A stretch of DNA of 64,000 nt from Clostridia bacterium (GTDB lineage: Bacteria > Bacillota > DSM-12270 > Thermacetogeniales > Thermacetogeniaceae), in contig CADDZD010000001.1 of NCBI GenBank assembly GCA_902812385.1, positions 62,001-126,000 on the forward strand. Reading direction: 5' to 3'. The notes beneath the pieces are model-generated. The model was given only the letters and a program-made list of their open reading frames with translations, did no database searches and was not told the DNA's origin. A program made the translations under genes and the position numbers. Shown here piece by piece: positions 11,673 to 16,237 of this stretch. The number at the start of each line of letters is the position of its first letter. Positions within the stretch are counted from its first letter, which is position 1.

Positions 11673-12560
11673 TTAAACCATTTTGATTCCCGTTTCCGCC
11701 ATAACCCTTCGAATTGCTTCCACTTCTTGCTCCGTGGCGGGGACAAGGGGAAGCCTCGGTTCTCCGGCATTTAAGCCTATGAGCCTAAGGGCAGCCTTGA
11801 CCGGAACAGGATTTGTCGTTATAAACAGAACTTTGTAAAGAGGGAAAAGCTTTAAATGCAGTTCTGCTGCTTCTTTTATCTTTCCTGAAAAGAAGCTTTC
11901 GATCATTTCTTTGATCATTTTACCGGCAACATGGGATGCCACGCTGATAACACCGCAGCCGCCAACTGCAAGCATCGGTAGCGTTAATGAGTCGTCCCCG
12001 CTGTAAATTAAGAAATCCTCAGGGGCCCCCCTTTTAATTTCTGCTACCTGATCAAGATTCCCGCTTGCTTCTTTGAAGGCACAGATGTTTTTAATTTGGG
12101 CCAGTCTAACCACGGTTGCCGGCAGCAGGTTGACCGATGTACGGCCGGGAACGTTATACATGATGATGGGCAGTTCGGTTTCCTGTGCAACCGCTTTAAA
12201 GTGCTGGTACAGGCCTTCCTGGCTGGGTTTGTTGTAATAAGGAGTTACCAGCATGATGCCATCTACGCCGGTTTCTGCAGCCTTTTTCGTCAAAGAGATC
12301 GTATCCGCAGTGCTATTTGAACCTGTTCCGGCAATGACGGTTCCCTTCTCACCAACTGCCTCTTTTACTACAGAAAAAAGCTTAAGCTTTTCTTCCTTGG
12401 TGAGAACCGGCGACTCGCCGGTCGTTCCGGCAACCACAACACCATCGGACCCGTTCTCTATTAAGAACCGGGCTAAGTTAGCTGCTTCGTCGTAGGCAAC
12501 TTCTCCATCCTTGGTGAAAGGAGTGACCATTGCTGTCAAAAGACTACCAAAGTTTACCAT
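11673..12560 (-). CDS. dapA: 4-hydroxy-tetrahydrodipicolinate synthase DapA
   Basis: Condenses pyruvate with aspartate semialdehyde, the first committed step to diaminopimelate, lysine and, in spore formers, dipicolinate. 295 residues, standard length. Schiff-base Lys163 (FKEASGN), Tyr135 and Arg140 (YNVPGR), the TTGES motif at 46-50 and Tyr109 are all present. The frame is open 32 codons further upstream into asd, but ATG at 12560 has AAGGAGG eight bases before it and gives the typical N-terminus, so the extension is rejected. It follows asd by 13 bases and is the last gene of the dapB-dpaA-dpaB-asd unit. Confidence 0.96.
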
Positions 12561-12573
12561 CACTGTCGCCTCC

Positions 12574-13587
12574 TTATAATAAATTTCTATTAATAAGTAT
12601 CTCGGCGATTTGTACGGCATTTGTCGCCGCGCCTTTTCGCAGTTGGTCGGCCGCAACCCAGAGGTTTAAACAGCCCTCGTGGGAAAGATCCGCTCTAATC
12701 CGGCCGACAAAAACCTCGTCCCGGTATGAAGTAAATAACGGCATCGGGTATTTTAAACCGGCAGGATCGTCCTCTACCACAATCCCGGGTGACTTTGCGA
12801 GAATTTCCCTGGCCTCCGCCGGTGTCAATTTTTTCTCAGTCTCGATATTGATCGACTCGGAATGGCTGCGAATTACAGGTACTCGGACCGTCGTGGCACT
12901 GATTTTAATTTCTTCATCGTGTAAAATCTTCTGGGTTTCCAGCACCATCTTCATCTCTTCTTTAGAGTAACCATTTTCCCAGAAAACATCTATATGTGGT
13001 ATGAGGTTGAAAGCGATCTGATAGGGAAATACCTGGGGCCGTACAGGCTCCCCCGCAAGTACCTGCTTGGTTTGCAACAACAGTTCGTCAATCGCCTCTC
13101 TTCCGGCACCCGATACGGCCTGATAAGTAGAGACGATGACTCTTTTTATACGCCCCGCGTCATGTAGAGGTTTTAGGGGTACTACCATAATGATTGTGGA
13201 ACAGTTTGGGTTGGCTATTACTCCCCTGTGGCCCTCTACATCCTCCGGGTTTACTTCCGGAACAACGAGCGGCACCCATGGTTCCAGCCTGAAGGTGCTG
13301 CTGTTGTCGATAGCTACCGCTCCTTTTTTCACCGCTTCGGGTACAAGCTCTTTGCTAACAGGTCCACCGGCGAAGAAGGCGATCTCTATTCCCTCAAAAG
13401 CTTCTGGTTTTGCAGTACGAACCGTTAATTCTTCGTTTTTATAAGCAATCTTCTTCCCTTCTGACCGGGAACTGGCCAGCAACCTTAAATCAGAAACAGG
13501 AAATTTCCGCTCCTGGAGGACATTGAGAATCTCTTGACCAACTGCACCGGTTGCCCCGACTATTGCAACTGAAAAGCCTCTTCCCAT
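12574..13587 (-). CDS. asd: Aspartate-semialdehyde dehydrogenase
   Basis: NADPH-dependent reduction of aspartyl phosphate to aspartate semialdehyde, the branch precursor for DapA. 337 residues with the Rossmann motif GATGAVGQE at 11-19 and the catalytic Cys129 in NPNCST. The later [10 protein letters not shown] region supplies the active-site His. ATG at 13587 has AGGAGGGG upstream. Between dpaB and dapA, as in B. subtilis, except that the aspartokinase gene dapG is absent between asd and dapA. A weak hairpin near the dpaB end does not look like a terminator, so read-through from dapB/dpaAB is expected. Confidence 0.96.
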
Positions 13588-13668: not shown

Positions 13669-14253
13669 TTAATACTGTAGCAAAACAGGCTGAATCTGCT
13701 TGCCTTCTAATGCCAAAAAGATTGTGTCCCGCATTTTGTCCAGGTGAGCTACGAGGGAGTTCGGTTTAACACTTGGGTTGTCCTGGCCAAAGGGAACCAG
13801 ATAGATGTTCTTTGTGTTCAAGAGGGTGGCGATATTTTTTGCATTTAGCCCGAGGCCATCGTTCGTGGATACGGCGATGACTACAGGTAGCTGGTTACGC
13901 AGGTGGGCTTTGATGGCCATCAAGGCGGGTGTATCTGTGATCCCATTAGCCAGTTTTGCCAGGGTGTTACCCGTGCAAGGAGCAACCACAAGAATATCAA
14001 ATAGTTTATTTGGCCCGATCGGTTCGGCATCCACAATGGTCTTAATCGGTTCATGCCCGGTAATTTCCTGCAATTTAGCACAAAGGTCCGATGATTTTCC
14101 GAACCGGGTATCGGTGGTGCTTATAGAATAAGAAACGATAGGGTATACCTCTGTCCCCTCTTGCACCAGTTTAGTTATTTCATTGAAGACGGCCTCCATG
14201 GTGCAGTGGGAACCTGTTAACACAAATCCCAGGCGTATCCCTCTGAGGTTCAT
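13669..14253 (-). CDS. dpaB: Dipicolinate synthase subunit B (SpoVFB)
   Basis: 194-residue flavoprotein-fold (PF02441-type) subunit which with DpaA oxidises the DapA/DapB branch intermediate to dipicolinic acid in the mother cell, later loaded into the spore core. Motifs seen include GFVLTGSHCTMEAVF near the N-terminus, PIGPNKLFD and VVAPCTGNTLAKLANGITD, typical of the family. ATG at 14253 has GGGAGGG about ten bases upstream, and 27 bases separate it from dpaA. It shows the organism makes dipicolinate by DpaAB rather than through the Etf route used by many clostridia. Confidence 0.95.
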   Translation of the reverse strand: MNLRGIRLGFVLTGSHCTMEAVFNEITKLVQEGTEVYPIVSYSISTTDTRFGKSSDLCAKLQEITGHEPIKTIVDAEPIGPNKLFDILVVAPCTGNTLAKLANGITDTPALMAIKAHLRNQLPVVIAVSTNDGLGLNAKNIATLLNTKNIYLVPFGQDNPSVKPNSLVAHLDKMRDTIFLALEGKQIQPVLLQY

Positions 14254-14280: not shown

Positions 14281-15180
14281 CTAAAAGTACTCCTGTGGTA
14301 TTTCCCGGAGAATAAGTTGGGGAATAACCTGGGCAAGGATCTTTCCACTTGTTTTAGGTGCTACGATGCCGGGCAAGCCGGGTGCAAGAACGGCATTTAC
14401 TCCTAACCTGTTTGCCGCAACAAAGTCTGTCCCTCCTGGTGCTGCGGCAAGATCGACGATGAGGACATCCTTTTTCATTGCAATAAGCATTTTTTCATCA
14501 AGCACCAGGGCCGGTACCGTATTAAATATTATGTCTGCCTCAGACACATGCTGCTGCAATCGGGTAAACACCAAAGGGCGGTACCCCATTTCGAAAGCCC
14601 GGGCGAGATCGGAGCGTTTTCTGGCGACAACTGTTACATGGGCGCCGATACCGCGCAGCATCCGTGCAAGAGTTTTGCCGAGCCGTCCAAAGCCGAGTAC
14701 AAAGGAATTGCTGTCATGAATGGTTATCGGAAGCTTTTCCATCGCAATTTGTATGGCGCCTTCTGCTGAAGGAATTGCGTTTAAGATAGCAACGGAATCC
14801 ATTTCTCCTATTTCGACCAGTTTCCATCTGTATTTATCGGCCCAGTTCCGCATCAAATCTCTGGCGAATCCAATGATCACAAGTGTTCCCGGCGGAATAA
14901 GCTCCGCAACGGAAGCGGTCAACTGGATGTGACAGTTATCGTCCAGTGTTTTTATATTTCCATTAGGGTCACTGCCAGACATCGGAAAAATAACAACCTG
15001 GGCATTTTTTAAAGCAGTTTTGATGTTCTGAGCCAAATGCACCTGTTCTAATTCAGGACAAGCAGGAAACCCGACCGCTGTGACGTCAGCGCCCATTCTG
15101 ACAAGATCTTGCATAAAATAGATATCGCGTTTATCCCCACCAATAACAGCAACCTTGATTCCTCTTAAATCCAAGCCCAT
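14281..15180 (-). CDS. dpaA: Dipicolinate synthase subunit A (SpoVFA)
   Basis: 299 residues. N-terminal domain (GIKVAVIGGDKRD, residues about 7-19) and a C-terminal NAD(P)-binding Rossmann domain with GFGRLGKTLARML. It forms dipicolinate synthase with DpaB. ATG at 15180 has AGGAGGGG seven bases upstream; an upstream TTG/ATG extension of seven codons runs through that site and is rejected. The Shine-Dalgarno lies in the 3' arm of a long inverted repeat, with a sporulation-type -10 in the 5' arm (see separate entries), so translation from read-through mRNA should be blocked. In B. subtilis the operon is sigma-K dependent and transcribed in the mother cell. Confidence 0.95.
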   Translation of the reverse strand: MGLDLRGIKVAVIGGDKRDIYFMQDLVRMGADVTAVGFPACPELEQVHLAQNIKTALKNAQVVIFPMSGSDPNGNIKTLDDNCHIQLTASVAELIPPGTLVIIGFARDLMRNWADKYRWKLVEIGEMDSVAILNAIPSAEGAIQIAMEKLPITIHDSNSFVLGFGRLGKTLARMLRGIGAHVTVVARKRSDLARAFEMGYRPLVFTRLQQHVSEADIIFNTVPALVLDEKMLIAMKKDVLIVDLAAAPGGTDFVAANRLGVNAVLAPGLPGIVAPKTSGKILAQVIPQLILREIPQEYF

Positions 15181-15186
15181 CCAATT

Positions 15187-15240
15187 CCCCTCCTTTCCCA
15201 CATATTACTGGCTTTAACAGTATATGAAGGGAAAGAGGGG
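15187..15240 (-). promoter_or_regulatory. Long hairpin covering the dpaA ribosome binding site
   Basis: On the minus strand the 5' arm (plus 15240-15218) and 3' arm (15210-15187) pair over CCCCTC/GAGGGG, TTTCCC/GGGAAA, CATAT/ATATG and ACTG/CAGT, about 21 base pairs with three small bulges and a 7-base loop (15211-15217). The 3' arm contains the dpaA Shine-Dalgarno AGGAGGGG (15194-15187). No U-tract follows, so it is not a terminator. Confidence 0.7.
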
Positions 15241-15245
15241 ATGGT
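15218..15245 (-). promoter_or_regulatory. Candidate sigma-K (or sigma-E) promoter inside the dpaA leader hairpin
   Basis: Minus-strand AC (plus 15244-15245), 17 bases, then CATATACTG (plus 15218-15226), one base from the sigma-K pattern CATAnnnTA and 6 of 8 with a sigma-E -10. Transcription would begin in the hairpin loop near 15211 and so omit the 5' arm. Confidence 0.5.
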
Positions 15246-15276
15246 GCAAGATTGGCCCATCAAGAAAAAGGATAAG

Positions 15277-16080
15277 CTAGTCCAGGATTTTTTCTAACCC
15301 CACCACCACTCCTTGCAAAGATCTTGCCTTGCGTATAGCGTAAACAACCCCCGGCATGAATGACTCCCTGCTTAAAGAATCATGGCGTATTGTGAGCACC
15401 TGACCTAAGCCCCCGAAAATAACCTCCTGGTGTGCCACAAACCCGGGCAAACGGACGCTGTGAATTCTTATGCCTTCCAGTTCACCTCCCCTCACTCCCT
15501 TGATTTTTTCATATTCGTCGGGGTGACCTTGACGAACTGGCAGCCTTTCTTCTTGAATCATCTGAGCGGTTTTTAACGAGGTGCCTGACGGAGCATCGAT
15601 CTTCTGGTCATGGTGCATTTCGATAATCTCTACATGCTTAAAGTGACGAGCGGCACGGCGTGCAAAATCCATCATTAAAACTGCTCCCAGAGCAAAATTT
15701 GGAGCGATCAAAACACCGAGTCCGGTTTTGCTTGCAGCCTTTCTCAGTTCATCAATTTCCACATCATCAATACCTGTCGTACCGATAATCGGGATTACAC
15801 CGTAATGGAGAGCTGTTATGCCATTACTAACCGCAGCCTCTGGATTGGTAAAATCAACCAAAACGTCTGCATCGTTATTTTCTAATACTTTCTGGAGATC
15901 ACTTGATACAACAACTCCGCAGGCGTTTAGGCCCACCAGCGCTCCGACGTCCACCCCGTTTTCTTTACTATCAATTGCCCCGACGAGCACCAGATCGCTT
16001 TCCTTGAGAACTGCTTTAATCACTTCTCTTCCCATTTTACCCGCGGCTCCAGTGACAACGACATGTATCTCCCCAGCCAA
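15277..16080 (-). CDS. dapB: 4-hydroxy-tetrahydrodipicolinate reductase DapB
   Basis: Reduces the DapA product with NAD(P)H on the way to diaminopimelate. 267 residues: Rossmann motif TGAAGKMG at about 10-17, the NFALGAV segment, and the active-site region EMHHDQKIDAPSGT with His, Lys and the PSGT loop. The only in-frame initiation codon consistent with the family is TTG at 16080; AAGGG lies about 11 bases upstream, a long spacing, so the start is slightly uncertain. It leads the dapB-dpaA-dpaB-asd-dapA unit and has its own promoter region. In B. subtilis dapB is elsewhere; here lysine and dipicolinate synthesis are merged in one operon. Confidence 0.94.
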   Translation of the reverse strand: MAGEIHVVVTGAAGKMGREVIKAVLKESDLVLVGAIDSKENGVDVGALVGLNACGVVVSSDLQKVLENNDADVLVDFTNPEAAVSNGITALHYGVIPIIGTTGIDDVEIDELRKAASKTGLGVLIAPNFALGAVLMMDFARRAARHFKHVEIIEMHHDQKIDAPSGTSLKTAQMIQEERLPVRQGHPDEYEKIKGVRGGELEGIRIHSVRLPGFVAHQEVIFGGLGQVLTIRHDSLSRESFMPGVVYAIRKARSLQGVVVGLEKILD

Positions 16081-16135: not shown

Positions 16136-16164
16136 ATTCTCGTATAAATGGCTCTTTATGTCAA
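16136..16164 (-). promoter_or_regulatory. Sigma-A promoter candidate P2 of the dapB operon
   Basis: Minus-strand perfect TTGACA (-35, plus 16159-16164), 17-base spacer, then GAGAAT (-10, plus 16136-16141; 4 of 6). Lies 56 bases upstream of dapB. Confidence 0.5.
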
Positions 16165-16210: not shown

Positions 16211-16237
16211 TAAAAAAAGAACCCCGTCAAAAGGTTC
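16211..16237 (-). terminator. Intrinsic terminator after ymxH
   Basis: Minus strand: GAACC/GGTTC stem (plus 16233-16237 and 16219-16223), 9-base loop, followed by seven T. The stem is short, but the U-tract is good and it sits between ymxH and the dapB promoters. Confidence 0.65.

Follow-up and report, generated by a model that had tools for sequence, protein, structure and literature searches.

A sigma-K-like promoter inside a Shine-Dalgarno-masking hairpin: a probable promoter-choice translation lock at dpaA

How can a gene for a spore-only enzyme be kept between genes that serve growth? The question is raised by the dpaA locus of the window, by which we mean the whole 64,000-nucleotide stretch of DNA analysed here, taken from a 2.7-Mb draft genome whose recorded relatives are Syntrophomonadaceae, Syntrophaceticus and Thermacetogenium. 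The gene order on the minus strand, on which all features of this locus lie, is ymxH, dapB, dpaA, dpaB, asd and dapA; these gene names were confirmed, the first being YlmC/YmxH. dapB (15277–16080) encodes 4-hydroxy-tetrahydrodipicolinate reductase, and dpaA (spoVFA; 14281–15180) and dpaB (spoVFB; 13669–14253) encode subunits A and B of dipicolinate synthase. Downstream follow the growth-phase genes asd (12574–13587) and dapA (11673–12656, an ORF whose true start is probably internal). For dpaA the ORF finder offers a GTG at 15201 as an alternative start, while the ATG at 15180 is the start that aligns across the family. The dipicolinate synthase operon spoVF (dpaAB) depends on sigma-K in B. 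subtilis and C. difficile (PMC3789822).

A candidate source of a growth transcript is the sigma-A-like sequence TTGACA-17-GAGAAT (16136–16164) ahead of dapB, with 10 of 12 consensus matches; because matches of equal quality are no more frequent than in shuffled sequences, this growth promoter is putative. Behind ymxH lies a terminator-like stem-loop (16219–16237), GAACC..GGTTC followed by the T-tract TTTTTTTATA. The same terminator scan detected no such site in the dapB-dpaA and dpaB-asd gaps, and no sigma-A-like promoter was seen on the minus strand between dapB and asd.

The original prediction had placed a hairpin, the dpaA Shine-Dalgarno (SD) sequence and a sigma-K-like promoter between dapB and dpaA, and we recovered all three where it had put them. 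The promoter is an exact match to GCAC (15247–15244), 17 bases and CATATACTG (15226–15218). Its -35 element GCACC (15243–15247) is conserved in most dapB-linked loci. The spacer (15227–15243), with the anti-SD CATCCCCTCTTTCCC, forms the main part of the hairpin's 5' arm, and the -10 element (15218–15226) forms its upper part. A loop of 7 nt (15211–15217) holds the sporulation start expected from promoter spacing, at about 15212, and the 3' arm (15181–15210) includes the SD AGGAGGGG (15187–15194). The predicted stem comprises about 25 pairs with small bulges, in which 15244–15229 and 15226–15218 face 15210–15181. Folding of the 91-nt RNA gave -37.2 kcal/mol (z -3.3), a stability that was reached by 3 of 200 shuffled sequences. 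Among the 41 SD-bearing ORFs of the window, dpaA has the strongest pairing between the SD and upstream sequence (-30.7 kcal/mol, the next being -23.4); a comparable pairing at position 2817 was attributed to chance (z +1.0). The hairpin lacks a U-tract, being followed by ATGGGC, and is absent from the terminator scan, and neither the window nor five dpaA loci contained an Rfam family match at gathering score. The SD is predicted to pair with upstream sequence in a longer RNA, and the position of the promoter within the 5' arm implies that RNA from this promoter would be devoid of that arm.

A -35 AC, a gap of about 15–17 nt and a -10 of the form CATAnnnT are the hallmarks of a sigma-K promoter that this sequence displays; in C. 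difficile, the -35 is AC for sigma-K and ATA for sigma-E (PMC3789822). A second exact GCAC-N17-CATATAYTG, the sole one besides that of dpaA in the genome of the window (L171; G000:C63:1855-1884), precedes a cotJ-like spore coat operon; this supports assigning the dpaA promoter to the mother cell. At this cotJ-like operon, the same promoter occurs without an SD hairpin.

We consider it likely that the dpaA hairpin is a promoter-choice translation lock, closed on growth RNA and open on sporulation RNA. A growth RNA initiated in front of dapB and continuing towards asd and dapA would include both arms, so that the dpaA SD would be paired and dpaA poorly translated. In the mother cell, sigma-K polymerase would initiate in the loop and produce an RNA without the 5' arm, in which the SD would be free and DpaA made. 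Since the spacer within the sigma-K-like promoter doubles as the anti-SD, the sequence that would switch the gene on would also lock the read-through RNA.

The layout is conserved far beyond the genus. Sequences upstream of dpaA were sampled in the family, in 299 genomes across the phylum, in the Bacilli-type class and in one additional order. Of 136 loci from the first round, about 110 have dapB immediately ahead of dpaA. Most dapB-linked dpaA loci across Bacillota carry GCACC, 16 or 17 bases and CATATA[C/T]TG, a promoter of the sigma-K type, and the spacer often starts with CACCTCC, the anti-SD motif of the 16S tail, which is complementary to the SD. In the 299 genomes, the exact pattern GCACCTCC-N12/13-CATATAYT occurs 29 times, 25 times at dpaA, and the reversed control once. 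In relatives, the check that the original prediction had proposed, promoter and SD-complementary spacer are kept together, and each locus has a complement of its own.

Fixed-column covariation gave no signal. We therefore compared native spacers with shuffled ones of the same composition and with spacers swapped in from other loci. For 16 loci of the family, folds with the native spacer were more stable than those with shuffled (p 3e-5) or swapped spacers (p 1.5e-5), and the same held for 82 dapB-linked loci outside the family (p 2.6e-10 and 6e-8, respectively); no such effect was found in 10 unlinked dpaA loci. Reduction to 41 loci with less than 60% DpaA identity left the complementarity between spacer and SD intact (p 1.8e-8 against shuffled, 1.3e-6 against swapped spacers), and stem positions beyond the SD are complementary as well (p 2.7e-3 and 1.1e-3). 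Partners of the SD are located in the spacer (70%) and the -35 box (9%), so that 79% of SD pairing involves sequence absent from the would-be sporulation RNA. Predicted SD openness in the family is 0.12 in the long RNA vs 0.84 in the short RNA, and in the 82 linked loci outside the family 0.30 vs 0.52 (p 2e-11). Pairing is far weaker in the upstream regions of dapB and asd from these loci, of dpaA of Bacilli, and of unlinked and terminator-insulated dpaA; among the controls the contrast was weakest for dpaB (p 1e-3). Unlike the window, the Bacilli loci examined do not have dapB ahead of dpaA, and their spacers show no excess of SD complementarity.

A terminator between dapB and dpaA would insulate dpaA from read-through, and such loci differ from exposed ones. 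Where this terminator is strong, promoter and SD are retained and pairing is mostly lost (mean 0.07 in 7 loci vs 0.58 in 87). Pairing was found in 5 of 48 insulated loci, i.e., those with a terminator or with dapB not adjacent, vs 44 of 85 exposed loci. Once near-identical proteins had been removed, the hairpin was present in 5 of 43 loci with a terminator and in 53 of 107 exposed loci (Fisher p 1e-5); for representatives with less than 70% identity the numbers were 2 of 19 and 35 of 72 (p 0.003). Within one order, nearly all loci of family f16 have terminators and z values mostly around zero, with exceptions such as L271 and L278, and those of its sister family f66 have no terminator and z values of -1.6 to -4.6; a further family, f155, has a different promoter and was left unscored for that reason. 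A tree-based test on 11 independent pairs yielded on average 4.6 pairs in the expected direction, none in the opposite direction and 6.4 without difference (median p 0.06), and the tree-corrected association is thus no more than suggestive. Relatives that keep the operon without the pairing had been named beforehand as evidence against the lock. They form a minority: among exposed representatives, 13 of 43 (about 30%) have neither a terminator nor convincing SD pairing. Examples of such dapB-linked loci, each with a sigma-K-like promoter, are L091, L092, L099, L107 and L109.

Complementarity could also arise from promoter and SD constraints alone, if the -35 GCACC and pyrimidine-rich spacers just happened to match purine-rich SDs. 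The sigK gene, which has the same promoter type and the SD GGAGGGG, illustrates the point: its SD pairing was 0.66 with native and 0.65 with shuffled spacers, hence no excess, even if fold stability was mildly elevated (z -0.84, p 0.02). High pairing probability by itself is no evidence, because a G-rich SD finds partners in many pyrimidine-rich spacers. Moreover, fixed-column covariation within the family did not exceed that of shuffles, which we ascribe to an SD arm that is nearly invariant and a 5' arm that varies mostly by C/U. For dapB-linked dpaA, however, the composition-preserving shuffles and the swaps reject this explanation, it does not account for the complementarity of the stem beyond the SD, and terminator-insulated dpaA genes possess promoter and SD mostly without pairing. 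We therefore regard it as unlikely.

The inverted repeat might instead be a DNA operator for a mother-cell regulator of the SpoIIID or GerE type, with SD pairing being incidental. It overlaps the promoter, and GerE acts on mother-cell genes, as does SpoIIID (PMC517825). Yet arm sequences vary widely between families while complementarity is retained, the pairing partner is the SD, and few loci in which the same promoter stands behind an insulating terminator show the pairing. One would expect an operator to be conserved in sequence and indifferent to a terminator upstream, and this reading is thus most improbable. A hairpin with some other effect on the long RNA, by processing or stability (an RNase III-like cut or protection of the dapB 3' end) or by partial termination, is very improbable too as the explanation of the conserved element. 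Intergenic hairpins often set RNA stability, and a cut in the hairpin could even free the SD; however, the absence of a U-tract speaks against termination, and what is conserved is specifically SD complementarity contributed by the spacer. Such a role could exist alongside the lock. The conserved layout, the locus-specific complement and the scarcity of pairing at insulated dpaA genes or those without an adjacent dapB favour the developmental translation switch that had originally been postulated, and the proposed lock at dpaA is well supported by this comparison of sequences.

Related arrangements were seen at other genes. In the window's family, the sigG SD pairs with the promoter region at a probability above 0.5 in 11 of 12 loci (spacer shuffle p 0.003). 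In family genomes, promoter spacer and -10 sequences upstream of sigG (L311-L330), e.g., ACATCCCCGGTAATAATGA, pair with the sigG SD GCTGGGGAGGA, and on RNA from the sigG promoter this pairing is predicted to be lost. One of the four pattern matches outside dpaA stands at the head of a separate dpaB-asd cluster, where it folds over the SD. At this site (L174 1500-1600, genome G090), dpaB lies away from dpaA, with a spore-permease-like gene before it and asd after it; its promoter, GCACCTCC...CATATATT, is the same as that of dpaA and folds over dpaB's own SD. The pattern matches L185, L200 and L201, the last being antisense inside an ORF, were not judged real.

A second lock, over dpaB and formed by the dpaA 3' coding end, was considered and discarded, as it is confined to some genera of the family (z -1.7, p 2e-4), has a z of -0.4 in the window and was not seen outside the family. 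At the junction of dpaA and dpaB (14330–14253 in the window, and family loci), several genera show pairing of the dpaB SD with the 3' end of the dpaA coding sequence, weak in the window; such pairing would couple dpaB to dpaA translation. Likewise, a 17-bp lock at sigK in the Thermacetogenium-like genome G019 was dismissed, being absent from relatives. The sigK gene of G019 is split (L173 1300-3030), with a site-specific recombinase gene after the N-terminal part, and in the window's genus sigK is found in two parts about 4.3 kb apart (G011:C5:34744-39472), as with a skin-like element.

Promoter-choice control of this kind has precedents. The original prediction referred to the lysozyme gene e of phage T4, for which the logic is established: in the long early RNA the SD is covered by a fold, the DNA encoding the 5' strand of this fold contains the late promoters, and late RNA without that strand is well translated, an effect of about 100-fold (PMC3014915). 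Gene e and, by prediction, dpaA share the folded SD in the long RNA and an own promoter within the 5' arm. They differ in that the former is a phage gene with a phage late promoter, whereas the latter is a cellular biosynthetic gene with a sigma-K-like promoter, conserved across many bacterial families. The T4 comparison holds for the logic, but a closer precedent, as far as it is described in PMC5942855, is sigG of B. subtilis, where a hairpin of 20 or more base pairs was proposed to block read-through translation (Masuda 1988) and, according to the same description, cannot form on RNA from sigG's own promoter. Like dpaA, sigG is a sporulation gene behind an earlier-expressed gene (spoIIGA-sigE in B. 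subtilis). Its promoter, however, is of the forespore sigma-F/G type and its upstream genes are themselves sporulation genes, whereas dpaA has growth genes on both sides. The comparative support for the lock at dpaA is broader than that found for these two cases. A search of the open literature, outside which fall most older subscription papers including the original ones on spoVF and the dap operon, retrieved no published report of this mechanism for dpaA.

It is tempting to speculate that spore-forming Bacillota follow a general rule of 'terminator or lock', in which developmental genes open to read-through of earlier-expressed neighbours carry an anti-SD in the spacer of their own developmental promoter and dpaA, sigG and the relocated dpaB are cases of one recurrently evolved device; we put this forward tentatively and consider it rather doubtful. 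The contrast between terminator and lock at dpaA amounts to a natural experiment. If the lock operates as proposed, it would extend one proposed case, B. subtilis sigG, and a phage example to a device kept across many families. It would also explain how a spore-only enzyme is kept between growth genes, with a promoter spacer that does two jobs.
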